Positions 7,407-25,936 of a stretch of DNA of 64,000 nucleotides are shown one piece after another. Every line of letters starts with the position of its first letter. The first letter of the stretch is position 1. This stretch comes from Gracilariopsis chorda. Its lineage: Eukaryota; Rhodophyta; Florideophyceae; Gracilariales; Gracilariaceae. The position numbers and the translations under genes are program-made. The stretch lies in assembly GCA_003194525.1 (NCBI GenBank), contig NBIV01000263.1, positions 1 to 64,000 on the forward strand, given 5' to 3'. The notes below the pieces were generated by a model that saw nothing but the letters and a program-made list of their open reading frames with translations, ran no database searches and was not told where the DNA came from.

Positions 7407-8399
7407 TTAACGTTTAAATTGTGCCACCCCGAAAGGCTTTGCCGCACTGATACGTTCATCCTGAATATATACGATATTCTTAGCTTCGACGATGGCACTA
7501 GCCGTAAACGCACCCATCCACTCACCGATTCGGCTACCAACGACCTTCTCCCTCCTTACCAAGACTTTGTCCCCGACTTGGTACGTTCGATCTGCAGCGG
7601 CCGGAGTCTTTTGTTTTAAAGCTCGGTCAAGTCGAAGCTTGGCCATGTGCTTTTGCATTTCAGTGCGAGCAGAACTCGCAACCTTTGCTCTGCTTGCAAC
7701 AGTTTCTCGCTGGTCTGGGGGTTCCGATCGTGTGTGAATCTGTGCAAACTCACCGAATACAAGCGCGGATGGAACAAGTCCTTCTGGGCCTAGTGTGTCA
7801 TTCATTGCTTTTGCCGAAGCCGCAAGAGCGTAATCTGGTTCGACGTTGTTGTACTGCGCCATGATTTTCCGATATGTTTGGCGAAGTGGTTGATGATAGT
7901 GTTCTCCTATAGCAAGACTTGAATGCGCTTCAACACCAGTCCGATCAACGGCGACGTTCGATATGGCAGCTATATTGATAAAGAGCTGACCGAAAGCACT
8001 GCCGTGATCAAAGAGCATTCGGTTTGGAAGCCCAGTATAGATCGAGGCCCAGCAGAGAACTATCTTGCGCAAGATTGTCATCGTAGACACATCGGGCAAA
8101 AAAGTAGCTGCTGAAAAATGGGTTCCCTCATCGACAATATGTAATACTGGCCTTCCGTCAATATATATGATGTCAATGAAAACTATTTCATTGAAACGGA
8201 CATTTTCTGCACCAAAAGACACCTTAAACTGCGTTGGAGCATTTTGTATCCTTTGACAGGGATCACAGCACCTGCCAAGATCCTTCAGCACGGCTAATGT
8301 TTCTGGAGTAGCTTCGGAAGGCTTACCCCGTTTCAATTGGTTAAAGAGCTTATTTGCAGCAGGGTGGAAGAACTGTGGGTGAAGCTTGTGGAGTTATGT
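7407..8399 (-). pseudogene. Copia integrase domain
   Basis: Just after an in-frame TAA (8394-8396) comes the HHCC zinc-binding region: LHKLHPQFFHP, then LGRCCDPCQ. The DDE core follows, with FIDIIYIDG giving the first Asp, MLFDHGSAFG the second, and GEHYHQPLRQ the Glu. A small beta-barrel-like C-terminus (YQVGDKVLVRRE) ends the 309-codon open stretch. All three catalytic acids are present, so decay has come through stop codons rather than loss of active-site residues. Confidence 0.85.
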
Positions 8400-8940
8400 C
8401 CTTGTATAAAACATCTTGGAGGATAGCTCCATGTGTACAAACACATGCCCACTCCTTGCACGATACATGGGAATAACCCACTCGTCCACAAAAGCTTTGG
8501 AACCAGTATCACTTGCAACTGGAACACGCTTTGTAAGACGGTTTGACACTGTATCAGCAGTAAGAGACTCTCGATCTAGGACATCCATACCACTAAGAGC
8601 AGGGATATCAGCGTGAACAACGTCCAGATCTATCAATATATTTGGAGTCCCCATTGGTGTTGCAAGTGGTATAATGGCCCTTCAAAAAGATCAGAAGCTT
8701 TTGTAAGCAAACCTGAAGCGTCAATGAGATGATGACTGTTGAAGTTCAGGGACTCGAAGCCTGTTGTCATTGAATATCCTTTGGAGTTCTTTTATACCAA
8801 TCACTGATCTAGGTGCTCCAATGTCGACACAGAAACCATTCCTTTGAGATCTGTTGTGGCCTTTGGAGAGCTCCGCTGAATTTACATGAGTAAGGTTGAC
8901 ATCAACAACGTTAATTGCTACGTCAATGTTCTCGGAATGC

Positions 8941-9434
8941 TAGATAGAGGTGCTAGATCGCAAGTTTCTTAGGCAAAAGCTCAAAAATACTACGAAAACG
9001 ATAGATTCTGCTAGTTTCTGGCGCTTGCCAGGTAGAATTTTTTTTTTTGGAATTCACACTCCCATATCTTACAGAGCCTTACCTCACCTGCACTGCGCAT
9101 CGCTAGTTTCAAGTTTGGAGCAAGTTCATTCTCCACTAAAAGCTAGATACAGATCTCAAAATGGCGCTGGCCACGCAGCGGCCAGCGCCATTTCGAGCAC
9201 CCAACCAAAACTAACATTTTTATTTCCATCTTTTGAATTTCAAACTTCATACTGCCCTAGTTTGACTTCCAACTCATCCTCAGGAACCCATCTCGGTAGC
9301 TCTCTCCGTTCTCACACACCCGACGCACCGCGCATCAGATTCCAATACCACCCATTCCGTCGTCCTTACAGCCTCAATGACACTCCTACACATCACGAGC
9401 CTTCTTCTCCCTCTTCCCTCTTTCCATGCCTCCT
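8941..9434. other. no gene; contains a short perfect foldback
   Basis: No coding signal. The only structure is the hairpin at 9155-9197, described separately. Confidence 0.4.
9155..9197. repeat. inverted repeat, 18-bp arms
   Basis: The arms at 9155-9172 and 9180-9197 match at 17 of 18 positions around a 7-base loop. The core is aatggcgctggcc and its complement. It would form a strong GC-rich hairpin. No coding context. Confidence 0.8.
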
Positions 9435-10081
9435 TTACAACCGACTCTTAACCTCCAATCCTTCTTCGTCCTTCTCCTTTAACCTCCTTTTCACGCCCCC
9501 TCTACCTCCAGGAGTAACCGGAGACCCACTCCCGACAGCACCTCCCACCCCACCTTCCCCTCCACCTCCATACATCTTGTTCCGCATATCCTCAAATAGA
9601 TGCACAGCCCTGTCCACCAGTAAAAGCCGCTTCTCCAACTCCAAAATTCGTCCTCGCAACTCCTCATTCTCCTTCCACAGCCTCCCCAGCTCCTTTCCCA
9701 CACACGCCACAACCCCATTGACATGCTGCTCTGCCCACACCCCAGCCTCCCTCACCCTCCGGCGCAACTCAGCCACAGCACCCATCGGCACTCCTTCCCC
9801 GACGCACTCAGAACCATCCCTCCCAACTCCACGACAACCCCCTCAATACGCTCATCCAAACGCTCCTTAAGCCCTTCCCCAGCGCTCCTCAATAGTTCCT
9901 TCACATCGCGGTAGAACCCATCCATTCGTCTCCCTCCACCTCCCCCTACCCCTCCTCCTCGACCACCCTCGCCCGCACCTCCCTCCCCACCATCCCCTCC
10001 CATCATCGTCCCAACCCCAAGCTCATTGACCGAAAATTGCAAATAGTAGTCATGGTGCGTGTGGATGTTCTCAAATGACAT
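9435..10081 (-). pseudogene. possible small coiled-coil protein, frameshifted
   Basis: Frame 10081-9752 starts at an ATG (MSFENIHTHHDYY), has a Gly-rich linker and a helical KELLRSAGEGLKERLDER segment. Near 9790 a frame change leads into 9791-9435 with a strong heptad stretch (VGKELGRLWKENEELRGRI, LELEKRLLLV), a Gly-rich turn and a basic tail (GVKRRLKEKDEEG). Together they would give about 210 codons. I recognise no family. It is codirectional with the oxygenase gene to its right and could be a third gene of that element, but its low-complexity composition also allows a chance frame. Confidence 0.3.
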
Positions 10082-10726
10082 GAATCTTCAAGAGTCGTGA
10101 ATGAATTTTCAAAAGTCGATAATGAATGTCCCACCTCTTCTCTTGAACCAACTTTGTCACTGCTTAAATGCACAGCTCATCATCTTCTCATTTGCTCACC
10201 CCTTGTCCTTCCCAACACAAAAAACAATATTTTGGACCTCTACACGATAATGCCTTCACCCTCTTCACTCTTCTTCATACATCAAGCACGCCACAATGCA
10301 TTCATGTATGAAAAGAACCAGTACTTTCTATATCAACAGAATGGACAATCGCGGTATTTGGCTATAACAACGGGATTCTTCATATCCGTACAATCGCCTT
10401 CAATTCTCATACATAATCCCATACACAATTTTACATCCATTCGTGTTTCATATGAGCTGCCCCTTCATTCTCCCCTCCAATACACCCATCCCAAGTTTCT
10501 TCTCATACTTGTAGACATTTCTTTATGGAATATAACAAAGCGAAATCTTTGTAGACATCATCCCTTCATTATTACGCATCATTCGAATCAAGCTGCATAA
10601 AAAGTAATCCCCCTCGTAGTAAACCTCTCCCATTCACTATAATCATTCACTATAAACATTCATTATAAAGATCAAAAAGCAATCATCAGATTTAACAAAC
10701 GTATATCACTAGTTTACTTATCATTA
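10082..10726. other. no gene seen
   Basis: AT-rich sequence with short imperfect direct repeats (for example cactataatcattcactataaacattcattataaa near 10635). No coding signal on either strand. Confidence 0.4.
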
Positions 10727-13700
10727 TCAATCGCTTTCATCGTCCTCATCTATCAGACCCTCTGCTCCTTTAGGAACCATTTCACCCTCATCGTCATCCT
10801 CCTGTTCATAATCTCCATCAGTGTTCATTTCCGCTGGTTTCAGTATATTCTCATCGTCCTCCTCATTCGACGGGTTCTCACCTTCGGCTTCTTGCATAAC
10901 TACATCTCTACCGTCAGCTTCATCTCCCCGCTCCTCTTCCCCTCCTCCCACCTCACATAAATCGCCACAGTCCTCTTCATCATTAAAAAAGGGAGGGCGA
11001 AAACCGCTTTGCCTATGCACCGCATCTGGGAGATTGTATCCCTCAGGTACAAAGTACATATGGTATCGCATGCAATAGCCTTTAGCTATTGCATCATTGT
11101 ACCCAGCCCCAGCATGAAATACATCCCCTCTTCCAATGAACACAGAAAACGGTGGAACTCTTAACTTCCGAACCATCATAGAAGCCGAAATCTCTTTCAA
11201 GCTACCTCGTGTCATTGTTAGAGTATGTGACCGTTCACAAAACCATGTCATGAACGCATCCGGTCCCGATGCCATTGCAAAATACCCCGGGTTCACATTT
11301 CTCACCCTGTCATTCTCCGTCAAACCCCTGAAATCCGTGTGTAGCACCTGTCTTGGACAATCCTCTCCAGTACAAAAAAATACGGCCAACCGTGTGAGGG
11401 GCATAAATCGTTCCACTTTCAGACAACCCGAGAGCCGCTGCAATCCGACCGAGCCTTGCATCCAACATGGCTCTCTTTCGAGCAAGAACCGCACCGTTTT
11501 CAAGCTCCTCAATTCTGTCCGCAATCCCTTGTTTGGTTGTGATGAAACGCCCCACCGCCTTGATACCATTCTTAACATCCTTTACCCCTCCTTCATTGAT
11601 GATCATATACCAGAAAACACGATTCGCTTCGTTCGTGAGATCCGGTTGCGAAACAAAGCGCTCGAAGAAGTCCATCAGTTCTCCTATCACATCTTCGTCC
11701 ATTTGCAGTCCCCTCTTCGAAGCCTCACTTGCCATGCCTTCATCTGTCTCGAAATTCTCCAGCACACAAAACCCTCTCTCGGACAGCTCCACTCTCTTCT
11801 TCTCAAAGCAAACACGAGCCGAGTCCTCGCTCTCAAAAGCGGCCATCCAAAACGCTTCCTCTTCAATCGATGCCGTTCCTGATGAAGGCATCTTCACGCC
11901 CAGCACTGCACGTGTCGTAGTACCCATCTCTTTGTGCATGTTGCTCGACGCACTCCAGTACACAGGATGATGACCCATTCGGAAGCCATCAGGTGATAGG
12001 CACTCCGCCCGATGGTGCTTCCTCAGATTTATCCTCTTCATGCATGGATGGGAATGCTTCACTGCATTTCTGCTTGCAGGCCACTCACTCGGCAACGAGT
12101 ATACCAGGTCCACCCAACACATGTCCGCTCCCATAGCAAGCCCTCCTGGCGTACTTAAGCCAGCTAGAAGCTTGTCAGGATTCTTATCGTCAAAGCTGCC
12201 TGTCGTTTGCTGCTCCTCTGCCTTGTCTTCCTCATCATCCACAAAGACCTCCTGAGCTTCATCCTCGCTTGACTCGAGCACAATGATCTCCTGTGCTGTC
12301 AAACACCTCTTCAAATCTCTCCTTTCCATACTACGCAGCACCTCCACCACCTCCTGCGAGATACCAAAGCCAGGTCGCTTCACACCAGGTGCAGTCGGCT
12401 TACGATTCGATCGTCTCTGCCTCTTCACCGTTGGCTCAAAATCAACTGACTCTTCATCTTCATCTTCGTCCAGGACCTCCACTTTACGCTTCTTTGATAT
12501 TCGCTTACTTCTTCGAGCCTCCTGGTCAGCGTTTGAAGGCTCCTGAGCAGCTTCCTCATTCAGACCAAGCAACTCGATCACGTCCACATCGGCCGCAGAG
12601 GGAGCAGCAGCAGTAGCATCCTGTCCCTGCATGCCCGACAAAGCGCTGGACAACGTCCTACGAACCTTTTTCACCTTTTAACTCACTCTGGACTCCAGTA
12701 AACTGCGTTTCCCTTTCGTATACCACTTCCCTAGACGAGATATGATATAATTTGACACAGTCTAGTCAGAATCGCCGATGGTAACCGTGGTATTCATCAC
12801 TTCCTGTACATTCTTTTTCTCCTTCATGGAACTCCCCAGCTCACTGCAAGTGTCATACGTTCTAGAAGCGCAGTCGAAGAAGTACTTTCGGAAATCCTCA
12901 AACGGTCCCATCTTCACAGTGGCCACCGACCTCACTCGAACATGTGCCTGTAGACATTGGATAGTAAAACGAAACTTATTCCCTGACATTCCAAGCAGAA
13001 TATCACTAGACACATGATTGATTCCAATTTGAGGCGTCTCCTGCCACACCACATCGAAGAACTCTCACAGACCGGTATTACGCGCACACTTCAGAGCAAA
13101 AGCAGAATGGCAATTGAAATGACGTATCTTCACTTCTTTCCCCTTCGTCTCACTGCTCCACAACACCCCCGTGATTTGGCTTGGTTTAAGCTTCGACAAC
13201 TCATACCCATTCTGCTCTACGCCATTACGAATAAACGAAACACCAGTGTGAATCTTATCTGCCAAGGACATCACCAGAACATTGGAGCTCAAATAATTCA
13301 ACGTCTTCCCCAGCCACAAGACCTCATTCAATGTCAATCTCCGGCCTTCGTTCCGTTCCGAAAGCGTGACGTTCAAACCAGTAGTAATCCATGCCCATCT
13401 CGCACCATCCTGCTCGAGGTCCAGTAGAACAATCACTCGAGGGAAGCCGTCCACCAAAAACACAGGAACAATCAAACGCCCACTCGCATCAATAGCGTCA
13501 CCAACCGGCACATCCTCCAACAGGGCCACCGCAATCGACCCAAGAGAAGGAAGCAATTCGAATTTCTCAGTTTGTTAGAAGTATCTCGAAGATGTTTGTC
13601 ATTCTTCGAACGAACCATGTTATTCGGAAATCAAATGTTGTGGATATCTATTACGCAATTGTGCTGGTCATAATCATCTCGATTGATTTCTAAGACCCCC

Positions 13701-14599
13701 AAACTGTTATCCACCTCTTCCGAAGGAACAGCATCACCGTCATCATATAAAACCCTCTCTTCTGGATAAAAATCGTCCCTGGAGAGTACAGGCACCTCTA
13801 TGACGTCATCATCGGAGCTTGCTCCGACTTCAGGCCCTCCTTGGTTTCCAGAGACGCCCGCGAGAGCACCTGATGTTCCTCCACAGCTCTGACGGGTTTT
13901 CACCGGACCTTCTCCACCACTCTCAAGGCTCTTCACCGGCGCTTTGGTCACCAAAATGCTTGATGGTGTACCAGCAACAGCAGGAAGGCGCTTGACTTGT
14001 CTTGCAGTGGTCCTGGAAGCTGTGCTTCTGTTGACAGTCTTCACATTTGCCCCTGACTGCGGTGGAACCGGCTCATTCCCCTCTCCGCCTTCATTTGTGA
14101 CACTCATCATCGCAGTTTCCCATGCATATAAACCCCCTGAAACCATCTCCTTCAAAGTTGTGGGCGGTTCCTCGGGACCCCCAAAAACATAAGAGTACTT
14201 CTCATCTTGGTGTGACGAAATATTTGTGTTAAAGATAACCACCAAGTCCTCTCCAGGTCTCTGCGTAGAGGACAGGGAATGGTTGTGTAGAGAACGACGG
14301 AGTCTCGTCCCCGGCCCCCCAGCAACCCCCACACCACGCAATTTGGCCTCTCCTACCTTCACCTTCCCATCACTACTCCCAACTCGTACGAACAGATTGA
14401 CCTCCGCATCGCCCTTAAGCACCTGACCCGTATTGGCCCCAATTGATGGCTCAGGGTGGCTGGCAGTTCGGGTTGCGCCCCAGCTCTTCGCTTTGCCTCG
14501 CGTTGTCGGCATCTCGATAACACGTCTCTTCGGCGAAAAAGGCTTCCTCGGAGTCCGTTTCCGTGATGGCGCCTTTATCTTATTCCCAGTGGAAACCAT
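10727..14599 (-). pseudogene. large protein with C-terminal 2OG-Fe(II) oxygenase-like domain (broken)
   Basis: The chosen start is the ATG at 14599 (MVSTGNKIKAPSRKRTPRK), a basic nuclear-localisation-like N-terminus; the frame begins only a few codons earlier at a TTG. Pieces in order: 14599-13631; 13556-13065; 13052-12762; 12674-11310; 11578-10727. The middle three share one frame broken only by TGA (13065), TAG (12762) and a TAA near 12675. An acidic/basic linker (KRISKKRKVEV, then DEDEDEESVDFEP) precedes a conserved region with VYWSASSNMHKEMG. At a T7 run near 11385 the frame shifts by one and enters QVLHTDFRG (HxD), VFIGRGDVFHAGAGY (distal His) and MRYHMYFVPEG (Arg), the metal and 2OG ligand layout of a double-stranded beta-helix oxygenase. 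An acidic tail ends the protein. Substrate unknown. Every region up to the oxygenase has a counterpart in the copy at 50.9-54.4 kb. Confidence 0.65.
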
Positions 14600-14662
14600 G
14601 GCTGAGTACTTCAAAGATCGCGCTTGCGTTTTTTTGGCACCCGCTTACGTCGAATACTTCCG

Positions 14663-15958
14663 TGATCACGTATGCTTGGTTCCAAAGGGATGGACGTAAG
14701 CACTATATATCGTTTTCAAGACGTTTCATGACATCCATTGTCGTCAACGTAGCATCCCTGCAATTCCCCTCCCAATTACTTGCATTGCAAAAACAATTTG
14801 ATAATTTTTTGGTCGAGGACCATGGTACGAGGTGTCGTGGTCCTCCATCGCAAACATGATGGAGCGCCAGGTCGCGAAATTTTAATTACAATTTATGCCT
14901 GGCGCTCCATCATGTTCGCGATGGAGCACCACGACACCTCGGACCACGGTCCTCGACCCAAAACGAAGAGAAACCTAATCCGTGGCCACCAAGTGAAAAG
15001 CGACTTGCGCATTCTTTGCAACCACATTCGTTGCGTCGGTTTGGGTGATTGAAAACTTCTATTGAACCCGAAGAACAACTTTTTCTTGTTAAACAAAGCA
15101 CCGGAGGGGTCATCTCCAACAGTGTTACCCCTTTCTTTTGAAGCTCCCTTGATCACGCCTGCTTGGTTCCAAAGAGATGGATGTAAGATCTATATATTGT
15201 TTTCAAGACGTTTTATGACATCCATCCGTCGTCATCATAGCATCCCTGCAATTCCCCTCCCAATTACTTGCATTGCAAAAACAATTTGATAATTTTTTGG
15301 GCGAGGACCATGGTCCGAGGTGTCGTGGTCCTCCATCGCGAACATGATGGAGCGCCAGGACGCGAATTTTTAATTACAATTCATGCCTGGCGCTCCATCG
15401 TGTTCGCGATGGAGCACCATGACACCTCGGACCATGGTCCTCGACCAAGAACGAAGAGAAACATAATCCGTGGCAACCAAGTCAAAAGCGACTTGCTCAT
15501 TCTCCACAACCGCATTCGTTGCGTGGGTTTGGGCGATTGAAAACTTCTATTGAACCCGAGGAACAACTTTTTCTTGTTAAACAAAGCACCGGAGTGGTCT
15601 TCTCCAACAGTGTTACCCCTATCTTTTGAAGCTCCTGTGATCACGCCTGCTTGGTTCCAAAGAGATGGACGTAAGATCTATATATTGTTTTCAAGACGTT
15701 TCATGACATCCATCCGTCGTCATCGTAGCATCCCTGCAATTCCCCTCCCAATTACTTGCATTGCAAAAACAATTTGATAATTTTTTGGGCGAGGACCATG
15801 GTCCGAGGTGTCGTGGTCCTCCATCGCGAACATGATGGAGCGCCAGGACGCGAAATTTTAATTACAATTCATGCCTGGCGCTCCATCGTGTTTGCGATGG
15901 AGCACCATGACACCTCGGACCACGGTCTTCGACCCAAAACGAAGAGAAAATTAATCCG
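14663..15958. repeat. three tandem ~488-bp repeats with internal foldbacks
   Basis: Copies begin at 14663, 15150 and 15638 (tgatcacg...gcttggttccaaag). The third is truncated near 15958, 20 bases before the start codon of the methyltransferase gene. The copies differ by scattered substitutions. Each contains a long inverted repeat: arms of about 59 bp (14813-14871 with 14898-14956; equivalents at 15300-15444 and 15788-15932) around an AT-rich 26-base centre. The array fills the gap between the two divergent genes, so it is where a shared promoter would lie. Confidence 0.9.
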
Positions 15959-17489
15959 AAGGAAACGGGTTCATTCAAGATGCACGGAACCGGAGAAGAG
16001 CTTATTGATGCTTATCTTGCAGTTCGTGATGACTACGCAGCGACGAGGCAAAATGTGGATGAGCCGAGAAGTTTGAAGCACACTGACTTTGTGGAGTTCG
16101 CGGTACAAAGTCGCAACGTGCATGACTCTGCCAAGAAAATATTTCTCACTCTCATCGGACTGGATTACATCTAGTATTCGGACTCCGAGCTCCATAACAT
16201 GTCTCTCAGAGGCCCTCCACGTCAACTCTATCTCATGGCAAGAGTGATGGACGTAAAGGACCGTGAAGAAGACAGGCGTGTAAGGGACTTTTGGAAGGTT
16301 TATTATAAAAGGGAAGGGCTTTAAGGAATCCCCGTAACGTGATGCTATCTGTCTTTTGCAAGTCCCGTATTCTAGGAGCAACCAATAAATCTTCCGCTTT
16401 CCACACGGATCCTTGTACCGACTTTGAAATGGTCATTGGGTTGTCTATGGTACAACAGAATGCCGTGGGTAAGAAAGGAAGTGGTAGGAAGAGGAAAAGG
16501 GGCATGGCAGCTAAGAAGTTCTCGAAAGTGAGTTTGTCGGAAAAGACCCAGAGTCAAAGAGTCGGGTATGGTGTACAGCTGGTGACCAGGGCTTGGGATT
16601 GTTTCGCCCAATTCCTCGGGTTTCCCAACGTTGAGGTTATGATCTTGCCTTACATTCGACTCGCTTATACCAGTGTAGTCTTCACCGATATCGCACAACG
16701 CTCCATGGGCTTCCAACAAAAAGATTGTTCCAAACAGTTTATGGAGGAAAAGAACGTCACCACCATAGAAGAAAAAGTTACCCAATCGGCATGGAATCTG
16801 CCGGACCCAGTTAATACAGCGCTTCGCCTTTGTGCCGAAGAATAACTTAGTGACCTTTCTAATGTGGTGGTACAAGAGAAACTGTTCGACATCTCTGCTC
16901 CCAGCAAATGGGATGCCCTCAAAAGATTCATCATCACGAGAACGAGACTTTTCCCTCTGCGGTTTGAGAACTTTAGTGAATCTCTTGTCACTACGGTTCA
17001 AGAGGCCATAAAGCCTCTGAAGCTCATTGCATTGCATGGAAGCAATGTCAAAGTACATCAAGCTGTGAAACCAGAGTCCGCAGAAGACGTTGACATCATT
17101 ATGGAGCATGTAGAAACTGGTACGGCTGGTAGTGGGAACGAACGTGCTGAGCGTGCAGAAGGTCGTGATCAGGGTGAGTTGGAAGAAGTAGAAGAGATAG
17201 AGATGGTAGAGGATGCGGAATGTGGTACTGCGGAATGTGGTACTGCGGAACGTGGTACTGCACCAAAGGCCACTGAAGGACTGCAGACAAAAGCTTTGCA
17301 GCAGGACGTATTGTATGATGTCAAAGGCACCGGGATTCGTGCACCACCGTACCCTACGACTTTGGATGATGTGATAGCTTACAAGTATTGTGAGAAGGAG
17401 ATGTCCCGCAACTTCCGTCTCCACAGCTGCAAGTTCAAAAATCTCATCGAATTGGACGACAACAAGTCTGGCGAAAGCGAGGTATCTAT

Positions 17490-18240
17490 TGAAGGAAGGG
17501 TACAGTTCCTGCTTTCCGATCCGCCATATGTGATTCGTTCTGAGCGTCGTTTGGAGAACAGCGAACACGATATTCTGACAGAGAAGGGCATGGGAGGTCA
17601 GCGAGGAGGTCGTCAAAGCCTCTACGTCCTGGTGGACATATTATACAGTTCTGCTCATGGGATCAGGTACCATTGTGGCGGGATGTGCTACGGAAAGTTA
17701 TGTACATTGATGACTCTGATACGATGCGTTACTCCTTCGTCGTCGACGAACAGCCCCTCCATTTCGTATGGTATTTAGGTAATACGACGGGTAACGTTGG
17801 GGGAAGACGTTGCCGGTTTCACCAGACGACAGAATACGCTGTAAATGCTGTTCGTTCTGGAGTTCCTTATACACAACAGCACCGGATGGTCAACTACGAG
17901 AACTTCAATTTTGTTGCTTCACGATACCCAGCGTATCATTCAATCATGAATCAGGTGCCGCCCATATCAAATAGTGAGATGCTCATGTGGTCTGTGAAAA
18001 ACCCGGATGGAAAGTATACGAGGAAGAGGGTGCGACCGGAACATTAGTGTAGGGCACTGTTGAAAGAGCTGATTTGCAGGTTCAGTCAGCCAGGAGACCT
18101 CGTGGTCGACATGTTTGCTGGAACGTTCTCGACAGCGATGGTGTGCATGGAACTGCCCAAGCATCGGAAGTTTGTGGGGTTTGAACCGGACAAAGATTGC
18201 TTTGAACACGCCAGGCATGCCGCTATTGTTCGCTTCGCTT
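17490..18240 (+). other. DNA methyltransferase domain (DPPY ... FAGT)
   Basis: Motif IV DPPY lies at about 17519-17530 and motif I (DMFAGTFST) at about 18109-18135, with a target-recognition-length stretch between. After the frameshift near 17610-17630 the frame reads GGHIIQFCSWDQ, typical of the beta strand following motif IV. The text just before motif I (CRALLKELICRFSQPGDLV) is the usual lead-in, interrupted upstream by the TAG at 18045. The AdoMet-binding and catalytic residues are present. Confidence 0.75.
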
Positions 18241-18559
18241 CCATAATACGGGAAGGACACACGGATATGGAGAAGAGCCAGGAGCTTCAAAAGATGGCCC
18301 ATTGTGTTTCCTCTGCATTCCCAATGGGAAGAAGCAGGCATACCGTGTTATGGAGGGCTGTCGACGGATTTCCACCGTACCAAATTCTTCCCCCACACCT
18401 TGTCGACGTTCTCTCCACTTTGTGGCAAAGTGAAATTCTAGGGACGTTGGGAAGGAAGAAAGCTATGGATGGATGGCCGAGGGAGCTGCAGGGAAGAATG
18501 AATCTGGAGAGCATGAAGTCTCTATTGGCAATGGAGGCTGTGCAATATGGGTTGCGAGT

Positions 18560-19115
18560 GGGCAAGTCTACTATTTGTCACGAAAAGGCTGGTGTTGGAG
18601 TGTTTGCAACTCGTCGAATTGCTGCAGGCGAGGTAGTGTGCCATTTCTACGGGACGTTGGTTTATCATGACCTTTCGAATCGGAAAGAAGTACAAAAGAC
18701 CTACGGGGAGGGAGTCATAGGTGTGACGAAGGATCGCTTCTGGAAGTATGCGGTGGAGATAGAAGTCTACGGTCAACAGTTCCAATCACTTCCGCATCGA
18801 AAACAGCTGACTAACTGGCATGGAAAACAAGCAAACCCCATTTTATGGGTGGTTCCTGCCCTTTTTTGTATTTCTGGGTATATCAACGATCCAAAGTACG
18901 TGGAAGGGGATAAACAGTTAGATGCCATAGTGGATGGCCTCGTGAATGAAAGGGAGGCTGATGTGCGAATGAAACGGACACCGGGATTGGGACGAACACC
19001 AGGGAGAATAACGGACTACAAACTTATTAAGATGGAGGCGACAGCCAACATAGAGCAAGGAGAGGAACTCTGCGCCAGGTAAGGTGATATTTATAACTGG
19101 CAAACATATTTGAAT
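18560..19115 (+). other. SET domain
   Basis: The domain opens with AGVGVFATRRIAAGEVV and HFYGTLVYHD, the SET-N pattern. It continues with a long insert to FCISGYINDPKYVEG at the place of the N-H-S/C motif, and closes with YKLIKMEATANIEQGEEL. The final catalytic Tyr-Gly of SET is replaced by TAA-GGT (19080-19085); the frame then continues DIYNW, so one base change removed the Tyr. Substrate (histone or other protein) cannot be read from the sequence. Confidence 0.75.
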
Positions 19116-19442
19116 GTGGAGGATGGAACGATAGTCATTGATTAGTTTGTTGTTATAAACCTTTGTCCACAGCTTGGGTAAAGGGGGACGTTTATTATTT
19201 GAACGGATGTGTAGTCCTAACTTACGAGAAAATCACTTTTCAGTAAGGATAGAAGATACAAAGCGATATAGATGTGACACAGAAACGTCCATTTTCGGTA
19301 CCACGGAGGATTGTATTCTCAAGATTTCACAAAAAACAAAGATCTTCGTGCGCACTGGGTGGCGAGATTTTCCGGGACAACACACAACGTGCGCCATCCC
19401 AGAGCGTCACTAGCCACTTGCGTAAGAGGCTTGACTCCAAGA

Positions 19443-21858
19443 ATGGCGCCGAAGGGAAAGAATAGAGGCCCGGCAAGGGGTGGTGCGGCGAGTGCGCCTA
19501 AGAAGCGGCGAAAGGCTATTGAGGAGCGAACTGCGAGTGGAACGAAAGCGAAATCATTTGTTCCTAGGAGCGTATTATCGAGGAGGAGGTCAGGAGAAGG
19601 TGCTTCGAAGAGAGGGGGAAGATGTGGGGCAAAGAACGTCGGATCCGAGCGCACGACGAGTGAGCGCACGACGAGTGAGAATTTGAAGGCTGATGCCCAT
19701 GCGCATGTAGCACGCAGGAGAGATTCGGTTCGGGGACAGCAATCTATGCCTGGTCTGATGGTGGGGTGGAGGGTAAGAAATGGTCAGTTGCTAGGAGAAG
19801 AGAAAAGGTACCACATCAGGGAGGGTTGAAAGCAAATGGGCGGTTCGAAGACCGAAATAAAGATGAAGCAATGCCGGAAAGGAACCAAATTGAAGAGGCA
19901 GTTGCGCTGAAGAGAGGTGGACCCCCAAGGGGAAATCAATATGGAGGAGAGGTAAATGTCCCTTTGGTAGAGAGTGATGGGGACGAAGAGGAACACATTG
20001 TGAAGGGGAGATGGACGAGAGAAAGAATAAAGGAAGGAGTGGGACGCTGCTCTGATTTAAAGGAAACGCGAGAAGTGGAAAAAGTGGTCAGAGTGACGGA
20101 TGGAATACAGGAAGCATCGAAAAGCGGAGAACGTACGGGCACCCCGGTATGGGCGCGAAAGGTGCAAATGGCTCAAGACTTGTAAAGTGATAAAGGAAGC
20201 ATAACGCCGCGGACTCCGGAAGGAATGCGAGAGAGGAAACGAAGTGTTCATCGGTCCCCAAATGAGCCTGCTCAGGAGCGACGGCGGCCAATCAATATTT
20301 TGGGAGATGCAGGGAATGACGACATCGGTGTGATGTCTCGATCTTCGTTAGTTGAGAGAGTCAATATGTTGAAGGCAGAACTCGGGCAGGTCAAAGGGGA
20401 CCACTGCAGCCTAAAGATGTCGCTGAAGCTGACGCAAGAGGAACTGAAGAGGATGAGAGAAGAGATGAGCGAGAAGAATTTACTGATAGATAGCTTACGG
20501 GAAGGGATGAAGGTGAGACGAGGGGAGAGAAAGGGATCTGAAGGTGAAAAGGAATTGCGAGGGCGTAGGAAGTATGTGGTTGATGCGCAAGAGGGGTTTT
20601 CTGGGTTTGCCAGGGTAGTATATGATAGGTTGTTGTACTATGCGAAGGTGGAGGCATCGGAGCTTTGTTTTACTTCGGAGGGTTTGAAAAGGAACTGGAC
20701 AAGTCGATGCAAAGTATTGGGGAAGGGAAAAGAGGGTAGTGTGTTTGTTGTGAGAGGGAAGGAGATTGTACCTCGATGTCCGTTTGAGATTGCGTCTGAG
20801 ATGAGGTCGTACACGCCTTCTTCGCGAGGAGGAAGTAATGAACTATTGAAGTACTTGGTTGGCGTTGAGATTGAGGGGGAGAGATGGGAGTCGATTCGTG
20901 AAGCGGATAGGAAGGATCAATGCGTGCGGGAGGTTGTTGCGGACAGGTGTTTGAGGCAAATTATGAAGCAGAAGTTGAGTGATCTGATTGGGGTTCGGAA
21001 GCGTGCAGCACGGGACAAAATGTTTTCCTTGCTTGGATATGACTTGATAGCCAGACGTGTAAGACCGCGAGAGGGGACGGAGCTAAGCATTGAGTTGAAG
21101 AAGCAGTTAGAGGAAGCAAAGACGAAGTTTACAGGGGATGGGAAGGCGAAGAGCGGTAGGTTATGTTCTTGGAGGATGAAAACAATCGAAGATCTTACGT
21201 ATTCTGGATTTCAGGTTGCTGGGCGGCTGAGAGAATTTAGTGAAGGGGACATGTACTTCAAGAACGGGGCTGCGGTGGAAGTGTTGGAAGATTCGTGGGA
21301 TATAAGGTTGGAACGGAAAGGGAGGGAAAGATGGAGTACGTTCATGGGACAGTGATGCATTTGGGTCGTTTGGATGCGTGGATTGGATGTGTTTTGACGG
21401 CAATGGACGCAGATGTGGGGCGTGGAGGAAGACGGGAGTTGTTATTTTCTATGTTGTACGGTGAGTATCTTCCGCTCGCGGTAGAGAATATTCTTGGTGT
21501 GGCGTGGGAGAGGGTGAGAGAACTACATCATGAAGAATTGGAGAATGAAGGTTGCGATGAGGGTGACCCGCGTTGTATAGCTGGCAATGGGGATAGAGAA
21601 GTGATGGTAGCGCTGTGGATACCTTCGAAGCGGAGGATATAATTGGCCGTGAAGGATGAATACTTTTTGGAACATATGACGAAACGGCTGGGAGGGGTGC
21701 TGGACTGTTATGTTGCTGCGTGTCGGCCAGAAGATCTGTGGATGAAGAGGTTGGTGAAAGAGAGTCAAGATGTTGGGAGAGGTGAGGCGATGGATCATGT
21801 CGAGGCGCAGTGGGAGGAAGGTCTGGGAGTTTATGAAGAACAAGTTGAAGAAGAATAG
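19443..21858 (+). pseudogene. second gene of the Plavaka-like element, basic coiled-coil protein (broken)
   Basis: The ATG at 19443 gives a basic nuclear-type N-terminus (MAPKGKNRGPARGG, then PKKRRKAIEE). A frameshift near 19790 leads to a charged stretch with a TAA at 20183. The same frame continues through ATG 20225 with a coiled-coil (SSLVERVNMLKAELGQVKG, EELKRMREEMSEKN) into a globular region of about 250 codons (GFARVVYDRLLYYAKVEASE; YTPSSRGGSNELLKYLVGVE). A second frameshift near 21340 and a TAA at 21640 precede the end at 21858. I recognise no family. Its position opposite the transposase suggests an accessory DNA-binding or regulatory role, which is inference. Confidence 0.5.
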
Positions 21859-22135
21859 TCTTACTGGTGGAACGGGTGGTTTACTGATGTGTTGTAGATT
21901 GTGGGGCGTAAGGCTTTGAAGAGGTGTCGCGATAGAATCGGTTGATGTAGAAACGATGGAAGCGCCAGTGAAGATGACAAGTGAATGGTGGGGTGGGGTA
22001 GTTTTCTCGAATGACATGGACTGCACGTAGATTGGAGGTGGAAGGAATGAGGCCGAACCAAGGAGATACGTTGTCGTCGGTGGAAGGTTTGGAGATGAGA
22101 ACTGGATAGGTGGTGTGGTCCCGCTCTTCATCGGT

Positions 22136-25100
22136 TCACCACCGAAGGCAGACGCAGTTGAGGGTGATATCGACATTGTCGCGCGGTGGTACGAGTTCAA
22201 GGAATTGTACGAAAGCGAATTCCTTTGTAATGGGGGTAGAAGAGCTTGAAGAGGGGGAAGGTAGTTTGAAGCGAACTAGGGCAATGAGCTTGGAGACCCA
22301 TACAGTGGATGTGGATGGAGAGGAGGAGTTGGTTCCTGCGACAAGGATATGGGAGAACTTTGGTGATCTGGAAGGTCCGAATGATGGAAAGACCAAGATG
22401 CACTGGAGGAGAGGGACGGAGGGTTCTTGGAGGACGAGTTCGTTTCGTTCTTGGTTTTAATTGTGTAGTGTTGGGATGTAACCGCCGACGACGTATGCTG
22501 AGTTGACAAAGGTGAGACGAGTTTGACGGAGGTTGTTGGGTGAGGGATTTAGCTTGAGATATTCGATGGAAGGGGAGACGAAGGAATGAAGTGTGGTGGG
22601 ACCTAGTTTTGAGATGATGGAGAGCGTGTCTGAGGAGAAGAGTTCTTGAAGAAATTTTGGACTTGCGTTGGGGGTGGATGCAAGGTACTTTGTGGCTGTG
22701 AAGATGTCGTAGAAGGAAAGATGTTTTCCGTCACGTACGAAGGAGGGTTTGCGTGGTTGCGGTTGAGTTTGAGGTCGAGCATGGGAGGATAGGAAGGATA
22801 TGCGGAAAGTGGATTCCAGTCTTTGAAGAGATTGGAGCGGTCTATAGCACGGATGGTTTCTGTATGGGCGGTGGCTCTTCGCTTGGAAGTTTTGGAGTAA
22901 TGTGATTTGAAGAGGACGTGGGCGCGCTCGAAGATGCCTGCGTCTTTGAAGTGGAGACCCCCGTATCTGCGTATGTATTCGACGATGTGGTCGAGGAGAT
23001 GGAACGTGATGGTGCCGAGGTGGGAGGAGTGGTAGGGTCCGAGAATGGATGCGGCTGTGACTTTGAAGGATCTGATGTGTTTTTCGAGAGATAGGAGGGA
23101 GGTGTCTGTCCATTCGGGGGACGAGTTGCATCAAATAGCGGAGAGAAGGAGGTCTGTGTAATTGGTGAAGACAGAAGTGATTGGGGAGGGGGAGTCGGTT
23201 TCTTTGCAGCTTCTGTCGAAAAAGGCGCCGATGAAGGGGAAGACCATGTCGAGCGTGCGGCAATCCTTTGCTTCCAGCATTCCTCGCAAGCCTTCTGTGG
23301 TGAAGAAGCCGTTGAGAGCTTGGGATTTGTCGCTTGTGGAGAAGTCGATGTGGAGGCCGGGTGCCGGGGAGTCCTTTACGATGGCGGCGAGGATGGAGTT
23401 GCAGTGTTTGAGGATTGAGGTGCGGATGGAATGGAAGGAACGTTTGGTGTTGTTGGGGCCGACTGTCGTGAAGAGTGATTCGGAGCGGAGTCGTTCGATG
23501 GCAGTGGCTTTGATGAGCTTTGAGACGCCGAGGTGGAAGTTGTGAAGGGGTTCGAAGGCGGATATGTTGTAAGAGGAGAGAAGGGGAGTGATGTTGAAAA
23601 TGGCGTAAGATTCGAAGAGAGAGGGATACTTTGCGAGGGAGAGGGACTGGAGGACTCTGGCTGCTTGTAACTTTTTGGTGCGAGCGACTTTTGGCTTGCG
23701 GGAGAGCTGGGCTTTGTCGGACTGGCGAAGGAGAGCGGCGTGTTCTCTGCCTTTGTTTCGAGTCTGGGATTGTGTGCGGAAGTGGATGGGGTTTGTGTTG
23801 AGGGAGAGATGTTCGCGGGGGACGGTACATCTGGGGCAGGGGTGATGTGGTCTTGTTCCGTGCGAGATGGCGAGGATGTCATTTGCCTCTGGGATGTCTG
23901 CGAAGTAGCCAGAGAGGATGAGGTGGCAGTGGTGGAGTACACCGTGGGCGTCACGGAATGAGAAACCGAGGAGGGCGGAAGAGAGGAGTGGGTTGAGGAT
24001 TGCAGAGATGGCGCGCTGAATGAGGTCCATTCTTGTTTCGCGTGGGATGCTGGAGGACGAATGTGGGATGAAGTCTGCGTGGTCCGTGGAGGAAGAGGGG
24101 GAGAAGGAGGCTGGGAGGTATCCGAGAAGGGTGAGGTTTTCGGAGATACACTTTTGGCGGAATGCTTCTGAGAAGTTGAGAAGGGTGATGTGAAGGGGAT
24201 ATGAGTTGATGGAGGAGCTCTTGAGTGAGATGGCGGACTTATCAGAGTATAACTGGACGAGACCGACGAAAGATTCCATACCGGTTGTTTCGGGGGTGTG
24301 CTAGACGATGTCATTGATGTGGCACTGCATGATGGCTTGTTTGAAGGCAGGAACGATTTTGTTTCCAAAGGCTGCCGCCATAGGATGGGCGAAGGCGGGG
24401 GTGGAAGAGGAGGAAGGGGAAGATTAGGAGACGGGTTGGAAGAAGATGTTGTTGAAGTGTGCGAGGGCGAGTTGTTGCTTCAGGAAGTCTGTGGCGCGTT
24501 TTTGGAAGATGGTTGCGGAGAAGAAGTTGTGCTTGTCGGTGAGTGTGAGAGGGAGGAAGCCGGTGGAGTTGATGCAATCATTGAGGAGTTGTTCTTGGAG
24601 TGCGTGGCACTGCTCTGCGGAGGAGATGGATTTCTGGAAGGATGACTTGGAGAAGTCTGGGTGGTTGAGAAGGGAGATGAGTTCATCGGCTTTGCGTGTG
24701 CTGAAGGAGAAAGCGATGGAGGAGATGCAGAGGACGAGTTGCTCGAGATGGGGGTTGTTGAGGAGAGAGGAGTGGGATTGGGACGAGGTATGGGGAGGTG
24801 GGTTTGAGGAGGAGACTGAACAGAGGGCGTGACTTGCCATGTGGTGTGCGTCTTGTGTTTGGAGGGAAAGAGAGGCCTGTTGGAGGTGATGGGGTTCATC
24901 TTCTGCAAGGGGGACGTTGTCGGAGGGGCGGTGTGAGGGAGTGGGAGGAGGAATGATGGAGAGGTTTGGAACGGATTTTCGTCGCTTGGTCCCTGGAGGG
25001 AACTGGACGGGAGCGTTGGCGGAGGAGGAAGGGCGTTTGTCGGGGGTGAGTCGATGAGAGCACCTGCGTTGGTGGTTCTGGAGAGAGTACGCGGTGCGGC

Positions 25101-25137
25101 CATAGAAGGTGCAACGGGGATGGCAACAGGGTATCAT
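22136..25137 (-). pseudogene. Plavaka/KDZ transposase (broken)
   Basis: ATG at 25137 opens a C2HC/C2H2-like zinc finger (CCHPRCTFYGRTAYSLQNH, then RRCSH), the usual N-terminus of Plavaka proteins. A Ser/Pro linker follows. After in-frame stops at 24424 and 24303 comes the core: VQLYSDKSAIS with the first catalytic Asp, SYPLHITLLN, TLLGYLPASF, then GVLHHCHLILSGYFADIPEA with the second acidic residue and PHHPCPRCTVPREHLS. The third part, after a TGA at 23131, reads FHLLDHIVEYIRRYGG and FERAHVLFKSHYSKTSKR, a typical C-terminal segment with the catalytic Glu/His context. A frameshift near 22740 and a TAA at 22457 precede a beta-rich tail. The copy cannot be active. Confidence 0.7.
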
Positions 25138-25365
25138 GTCGGGGGAAGGAGAACGGAGAACGGGATGCTTGGAAACAGAGAAGGGAGGGTGGTGGCGGAG
25201 TGGGGTATCGGGGAGCGTAATATTATGGCGCACGTAGATGAGGTGGTGCACGTGGTGCACGTGATACAGAGCGTCTTTTCGTAGGGCGTGGGGTAGAGCA
25301 TGCGACGCAGGGAGCAGGTCGGGCAGCGGGTGAAAGAAAGCCAAAGCTATTTGGTTATGTAAACG

Positions 25366-25403
25366 CTATGTATCTATTATATCTATTCTATCTATTCTAT
25401 TTT
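25366..25403. repeat. short tandem repeat (tctat-type)
   Basis: About 38 bases of imperfect ctatt/tctat repeats lie at the right flank of the Plavaka-like element. Confidence 0.8.
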
Positions 25404-25936
25404 GCTATTTGAAGGGGCACTCGCTCAGGACCAGTAAGATTTGGATTCCACGTGCACCTGAGAGGGTAGGTATTAGTGGAGTCTGGTGCTAGTTTTACCT
25501 CCAAAGAAACTGGGAAATGTCTAGTATACTGCTAGTCTTTTGTCCCAAGCAAACTAGCTCTGTGCTATGTATGGAATTATTTTGAGAAATTTGATTCATT
25601 CAAAATTGGGTTTGAAGAGTCGTTATTGGTTCATTTTAGTTCTTCGCCTTTTGAATGCCAAACTAGCATAACGAGAACACCAACTTAATTTGCGCCTCAG
25701 TAAGGTGGTTCGATGCGAAACTACCACATGAGCTGGGCGACGATGTTGAGGCAGATTTCGTCGTTGCCCTAACAAAAATCCCGTTGCTCCGTTCTCATAT
25801 GATTATCTTCACTCCTTCCTATTGTGACTGATAGGTGATTTGTGTACCACTCTTGATCCAAATTTTCTACATCATGCACTAGATTTTGATTGTTAGCGGT
25901 TATCTCATCGAAGAGACGTATATCTTCTTCATTGTT
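25404..25936. other. no gene seen
   Basis: No open frame of interest. The sequence lies between two mobile-element relics. Confidence 0.4.

Follow-up and report, generated by a model that had tools for sequence, protein, structure and literature searches.

A transposon-borne fusion of a DNA methyltransferase and a SET domain in the red alga Gracilariopsis chorda

The window analyzed here, a 64,000-nucleotide stretch that covers positions 1 to 64,000 of contig NBIV01000263.1 of the red alga Gracilariopsis chorda (GenBank assembly GCA_003194525.1), contains a decayed copy of a large Plavaka-type DNA transposon, and inside it a damaged gene in which a beta-class DNA methyltransferase (MTase) is joined to a C-terminal SET domain (Table 1). 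Intact relatives elsewhere in the genome show the same two domains within one open frame, and in the following we describe the element, the fusion gene and the companion genes, given as lengths in amino acids (aa), before we weigh what such a protein might do for the transposon that encodes it.

Table 1. Features of the transposon copy in the window, with coordinates in base pairs (bp) and expectation values of profile matches (E).
Feature	Positions	Strand	Basis
Left TA, probable 2-bp target duplication	8919..8920	.	Same as TA at 25686-25687
Full extent of the decayed Plavaka-type DNA transposon copy, about 16.8 kb	8921..25685	.	Ends by copy comparison; terminal inverted repeats; internal transposase
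Left terminal inverted repeat, degenerate version of CGTCGGTGTTCTCGNNATGCTAG	8921..8943	+	Copy comparison
Remnant of small protein gene (276-aa open frame in C53), coiled-coil-like by eye	9417..9916	-	tblastn of C53 frame
Putative 2-oxoglutarate/Fe(II) dioxygenase-like gene, HTD ... FHAG ... R, frameshifted	10751..12734	-	tblastn of L069 protein in two frames; motif alignment
Probable N-terminal part of dioxygenase-like gene, broken frames 12762-13064, 13065-13574 and 13631-14644	12735..14644	-	Inferred from 1417-aa frames
Three tandem repeats of about 488 bp with 66-bp inverted arms (about 92% complementary)	14657..16015	.	Between two head-to-head genes
DNA methyltransferase-SET fusion gene, damaged: two frame changes, TAG at 18045, TAA at 19080	15965..19142	+	tblastn of intact 1065-aa protein, three frame segments
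Beta-class N6_N4 DNA methyltransferase domain; DPPY 17518-17529, FAGT 18114-18125	17500..18212	+	PF01555; full-length in L032
Linker, about 125 residues	18213..18590	+	379 bases from MTase match to SET match
SET domain, GVGVFA ... YINDPKY ... GEEL	18591..19073	+	PF00856, motifs
Element gene of unassigned family (821-aa open frame in C53)	19371..21783	+	tblastn of C53 frame
Plavaka transposase gene, broken	21890..25149	-	PF18759 E 7.3e-20 in 23134-24300; tblastn of 1160-aa C53 frame
Right terminal inverted repeat	25663..25685	-	Copy comparison
Right TA, probable 2-bp target duplication	25686..25687	.	Same as left TA

DNA of the window region matched the genome in dozens of places (41 matches, with 40 of 116 candidates scored), and homology to 20 fetched copies spans approximately 8919 to 25687, interrupted in many of them by internal gaps. 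The inverted repeat CGTCGGTGTTCTCGNNATGCTAG is present at both element ends, and each end of the young family was found in at least 40 places at 98-100% identity (40 were scored for each end, out of 128 candidates for one and 117 for the other). Among young copies, ten had ends that could be paired from the end-match lists; both ends of each were fetched, and all ten carry perfect 2-bp target duplications (AT, AT, AG, CG, TA, TC, TA, TT, TG and TA), with AT on both sides of the copy C53. Older copies have TA on both sides in the window, L011 and L026, and a mismatched pair in L023 (TA left, CT right). The transposase profile PF18759 also matches the 1065-aa scanned part of the 1160-aa C53 frame (E 2.3e-21). 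Given that the young-family termini read CGTCGG..CCGACG, and not TGT..ACA (PlavakaA) or CATCA..TGATG (PlavakaB), we did not file the element as a fungal PlavakaA or PlavakaB. The contiguous C53 element measures about 11.85 kb and holds frames of 276 (-), 1065 (+), 821 (+) and 1160 aa (-), the last being the transposase; the idea that the C332, C745 and C241 elements have the same length proved wrong. The window element family is a genuine, recently active multi-gene DNA transposon with about five genes. An earlier note on this DNA, made from the sequence alone, had described the gene as transposon-like, which is borne out by the Plavaka transposase, inverted ends and 2-bp duplications around it, and the reading of the fusion as a host gene is ruled out by the transposon ends, the duplications and the copy number.

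The same note had traced an open frame after 18048 from motif I of a methyltransferase through a SET domain to 19079, and that frame is present: the + strand is free of stops for 344 codons from 18048 to 19079. The separate profile searches that it called for gave significant matches to both domains, above their respective cut-offs, with N6_N4_Mtase (PF01555) at E 4.9e-9 (36.9 bits, cut-off 26.7) and SET (PF00856) at E 6.1e-6 (27.0 bits, cut-off 22.4; profile 1-101 of 105). The PF01555 match covers positions 168-219 of the 221 in the profile, which is the motif-I end only, and the window DPPY lies in an earlier, different frame, so that the single window frame holds motif I to SET only. Limits of 15980..19156 had been given for the gene and were nearly right, homology to the intact protein running from 15965 to 19142 in three frame segments. 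The raw window sequence reads DPPYV at motif IV; the DPPFG of its alignment row most likely comes from merging two overlapping frame segments.

A genome search with the 808-aa frame of L011 returned 62 matches, with 56 of 366 candidates scored, and four young copies, C53, C745, C332 and C241, have an unbroken frame of 1065 codons. Over 3195 bases, C745 and C332 each differ from C53 at 10 positions, C241 at 17 and C48, which is broken by one TGA, at 11; C976 (97% identity over 569 residues) is also broken. DPPY, FAGT and SET all lie within the single 1065-aa frame of L032, where PF01555 matches residues 518-756 over profile positions 1-220 of 221 (E 3.6e-18; DPPYG at 524-528, DLFAGT at 721-726) and SET matches residues 882-1044 over the full-length profile (1-105) at 22.0 bits, just under the 22.4 cut-off. 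The SET match of L070 reaches 29.3 bits, above that cut-off. The single 808-aa frame of L011 covers DPPY and FAGT and extends no further than the start of SET (SET 13.0 bits, below cut-off). The 1065-aa protein is laid out as an N-terminal region of about 517 residues whose fold is unassigned, a complete beta-class MTase, a linker of about 125 residues and the C-terminal SET domain. The order of DPPY before FAGT that had been taken as the beta-class signature is held within one polypeptide in both L011 and L032. This transposon thus encodes one polypeptide with an N-terminal region, a complete beta-class MTase and a C-terminal SET domain.

Across the whole genome, 85 SET matches were compared with 150 scored MTase matches (175 candidates), and 59 of the 85 sit 373-430 bases downstream of an MTase match on the same strand; the same open-frame length was reported for both domains in 20 of these 59 pairs, the window included. 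Another 26 SET matches are unpaired, of which 14 are among the first 15 rows, with the strongest scores, and are probably host genes, and the other 12 are weaker or partial. MTase matches with no SET match at threshold number 91 of 150, some of them known misses, as in the intact C332, whose SET is unlisted. Taken with the domain scores, repetition in dozens of copies excludes chance, and the claim that the fusion is not an artefact of joining pieces holds.

More distant forms ("forms" and "sub-families" are used here for classes by percent identity) keep the arrangement. C637, 45% identical to the young protein over 379 columns and with a 1039-aa open frame according to the search table, was read over 1151 bases, in which a single frame runs from MTase motif I across an equally long linker into SET, the DPPY half lying outside the stretch read. 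A search with the C637 stretch returned 108 matches (107 of 299 candidates scored), and by hand count 89 of them run from query residue 5 or less to at least 320 of 383, thereby taking in the MTase end, the linker and most of SET. C12 has a more diverged MTase frame (1003 aa according to the table), which continues into the first part of SET before a stop interrupts it. When L032 was compared with 21 window-family copies, window included, the ratio of nonsynonymous to synonymous substitution rates (dN/dS) was 0.139-0.213 in the MTase and 0.145-0.296 in SET, while the N-terminal region gave 0.160-0.185 and the linker 0.185-0.256. These values are rough because dS is about 0.8-1.3 and one long branch is common to all 21 comparisons; among young copies, changes are too few to measure selection. 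Since these ratios are well below 1, rough as they are, both halves and the linker appear to be kept as protein. Judged from these sequence comparisons, the fusion is old and held together by selection across diverged element forms.

The full-length PF01555 match in L032, with motif IV before motif I, marks a beta-class amino-DNA methyltransferase. Matches to solved structures fall on the MTase part and include DpnA-type adenine methylases, a methyltransferase (9c3u, 8urk) and CcrM, and 174 phage records match the same part, with the PhiCh1 adenine methylase as the best row (27% identity over 87% of the MTase region). The CcrM-like NCBIfam match is weak and far below its own cut-off. Under the motif rule set out in the part of PMC8885841 consulted, DPPY favors N6-adenine and SPPY N4-cytosine, and the DPPY of the fusion points to N6-adenine rather than N4-cytosine as its predicted target base. 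Pattern-based scans, which reach close relatives only, found no close relative of the MTase or SET part in viral_contigs, nor of the MTase part in genome_contigs; no phage record matched the SET part. Within the reach of these scans and of the phage records, a viral or prokaryotic source of the whole fusion was rejected. An Rfam search of the window gave no match.

In the SET half, GVGVFA is found in 27 of 33 aligned copies and EYG/RYG is common; from one alignment, L009, whose row was the wrong region, and the partial row L039 were left out. A profile built from three SET regions gives weak matches (best E 0.003) to EZH2, MLL3 and SETD8 on the N-terminal GxG block, to which the EZH2 match adds the C-terminal GEELF..YG block.

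Among the companion genes, the dioxygenase-like gene clearly belongs to the element. Its 98 matches collapse to 79 loci, 50 of which have an MTase match within 9 kb and 29 of which have none, and all 50 close pairs are arranged head-to-head. The gene is open to 1062-1417 aa in other copies (1417 aa in C204 and C550), and HTD, FHAG and R are common to the window and L069, as compared by eye in these two sequences. A second element, of a distant form, lies on the same contig beyond the window (G000:C263:85888-95823) and has an MTase-SET remnant with stops as well as a 701-aa dioxygenase-like frame, 49% identical. The tandem repeats between the two head-to-head genes seem fewer in other copies; they are possibly a two-way promoter or a target array. 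Neither the 276-aa protein (scanned as the identical L068 frame, against Pfam) nor the 821-aa protein (against Pfam and PHROGs) had a match.

Outside the element, a weak match to an integrase core (rve, E 8e-4, below cut-off) adjoins it at 7410-8393 on the - strand and is perhaps a retroelement remnant, and ordinary-looking host genes occupy 28591-58642, among them an ABC transporter, a bacterial-type glucokinase, a thioesterase, an NAD kinase and a BK-type potassium channel. Beside the C53 element, a 1017-aa open frame (L030 3622-6672; G000:C53:98412-101462) contains an HSCGCYV motif and by eye resembles an Ulp1-type peptidase protein from some other mobile element. Marker genes in the assembly agree with a red-algal host: phycobilisome linker domains gave 7 matches on 7 contigs and chlorophyll-binding proteins 15 matches, two kinds of nuclear gene that in combination indicate a red alga, whereas a search of the assembly for the plastid-encoded RuBisCO large subunit gave no match.

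The methylation of DNA and that of histones are usually coupled through separate enzymes that recruit one another. We propose, with confidence a little better than even, that the element carries a selected MTase-SET fusion with an MTase of bacterial or phage-like origin, which would methylate both adenine and lysine and thereby mark the element's own copies against silencing. The methyltransferase would have been acquired from a bacterial or phage-like source; it would place adenine methylation on element DNA, as DPPY predicts, probably with help from the N-terminal region or from partner proteins of the element, and at the same site the tethered SET domain would methylate a lysine on a histone or on another protein of chromatin. 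Self-marking would be the most likely purpose: the element's transposase could go on reading its copies, which would stay accessible to transcription despite host silencing, and the head-to-head dioxygenase-like gene may form a second, eraser-like part of the kit. Self-marking is the most economical reading because transposons with chromatin-modifying genes are known, as described in the part of PMC12730594 used here. The more ambitious version, a complete chromatin-writing kit in which an adenine and histone-lysine writer paired with an eraser-type dioxygenase would maintain a private epigenetic state apart from host silencing, strikes us as rather unlikely.

Several observations weigh against the proposal of a selected, self-marking fusion. 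The SET core NHS occurs in none of the 33 aligned copies and NHL in one; most have NDP instead, with YINDPKY exactly in 19, C637 has YINDPRY, and an NDP-type core may bind or act differently from classic NHS SET domains. A 608-aa frame sits at eleven amplified places (C12, C37, C64, C144, C232, C253, C281, two in C32, C34 and C546; one with TAG), its match ending 46 residues before the protein end, inside SET; these derivatives are without most of the N-terminal region, and their MTase is complete wherever PF01555 was scored. Since such derivatives have been amplified, movement does not depend on having the whole fusion in cis. L068 (G000:C340:11941-19990), an 8-kb element with the same ends and a duplication, shows no remnant of either the fusion or the 821-aa gene; its contents are the 276-aa gene, a membrane-like frame of 417 aa, a 311-aa frame with the dioxygenase-like core and a transposase that is cut. 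The element family moves with varying gene contents, and cut or fusion-less copies could borrow proteins in trans. No intact fused frame is present in C249, C1065, C94, C179, C435, C192 and C37:413728, a group at 42-43% identity with stops inside SET in three copies and before SET in others, where on sequence decay and separate genes look alike; the note's expectation that intact homologues keep both domains in one gene is upheld by the intact young copies and left open by this group. The dioxygenase-like protein had no match in Pfam, NCBIfam or PDB and one weak PHROGs match of unknown function (E 0.3), and its putative assignment, made from motifs read by eye, is best treated as a lead. The roughness of the dN/dS values belongs here as well.

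The same SET motifs bear on the rival that we take most seriously, though we would still bet against it, in which the SET half is no longer an enzyme and would serve as a binding or dimerization platform that targets the MTase to chromatin, much as the chromodomain of bdelloid N4CMT does. NDP in place of NHS, the weak score of the L032 SET domain and a large insert within it all speak for this, whereas both the intact young copies and C637, at ~45% identity, have kept the GxG, the N in NDP and the C-terminal Y in GEEL..YG, and dN/dS is nearly as low in SET as in the MTase. A different purpose is conceivable for a fully active protein. Dam methylation restrains or licenses some bacterial transposons, and methylation of the element's ends could likewise limit transposition or tie it to replication, with SET adding repressive histone marks. 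The anatomy of the element fits such self-restraint as well; adenine methylases are frequent among DPPY enzymes of this class (here, the weak CcrM-like match and the phage annotations), and the ends are as strongly conserved as described above. Repression in trans would, however, be poorly selected unless copies long share a genome, and SET-truncated derivatives spread well, and we regard self-restraint or licensing as unlikely.

Weaker still is the case for passenger capture, in which a host or foreign gene would be carried without a role in the element's life cycle. L068 moves without the fusion and SET-truncated copies multiply, as that explanation would have it, but linker length is similar in forms of very different identity, all four regions are under purifying selection, and dN/dS well under 1 between two sub-families disfavors it; we consider it highly improbable. 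Finally, two separate genes could have been joined by decay or assembly. The window copy is broken, and stops separate the domains in some copies, such as C435 and C192; yet the two domains share one open-frame length in 20 pairs spread over many contigs, 1065-aa frames included, and for the young sub-family an artefact is refuted by four intact frames compared base by base, which leaves this explanation with almost no probability. If the fusion preferred here is active as predicted, it would allow one to ask whether a parasite imposes a combined mark on its own copies, and it would offer a eukaryotic system for the disputed role of N6-methyladenine, with intact sources, SET-cut derivatives and gene-less copies in one genome.

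Phage and bacterial beta-class adenine methylases such as PhiCh1 methylase and CcrM are stand-alone enzymes that are not known to carry SET; they resemble the algal MTase region by sequence, and the algal protein adds SET. Searches of the open-licence PubMed Central (PMC) literature, which does not include Repbase Reports, turned up no transposon described as carrying a DNA methyltransferase-SET fusion, and what appears to be new here is epigenetic transposon cargo in the form of a predicted dual-methyltransferase fusion, unmet in the literature searched. The element class itself is probably already known. Giant En/Spm (CACTA) elements of 16-20 kb with 4-5 ORFs (open reading frames) were reported from Chondrus crispus (Kojima, Bao and Jurka 2013, Repbase Reports, via PMC6431247); like the window element they come from a red alga, belong to a CACTA-like group and are similar in size and gene number, and, compared by the citing paper's description only, those families may be the same elements as ours. 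Some fungal Plavaka and other transposon groups carry a TET/JBP dioxygenase, according to the part of PMC12730594 consulted, and the fungal elements share with the algal one the PF18759 transposase, 2-bp duplications, a possible dioxygenase gene and epigenetic cargo; in contrast, the algal element has CGTCGG..CCGACG termini and the MTase-SET fusion, and its dioxygenase-like protein went unrecognized by the profiles tried. The same part of that paper describes SET genes in HarbingerS and MuDR transposons of the oomycete Phytophthora, which are likewise DNA transposons with SET but have transposases of other groups and, in that description, no mention of an MTase fusion. A parallel in protein design is the bdelloid N4CMT, described in the consulted part of PMC8885841 as a beta-class N6_N4 MTase of bacterial origin with a C-terminal chromodomain and SPPY (N4-cytosine). 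Both proteins join such an MTase to a chromatin domain in a eukaryote; N4CMT, as described there, is not carried in a transposon and has SPPY and a chromodomain reader, whereas the algal fusion is transposon-borne, with DPPY and a SET-type domain.

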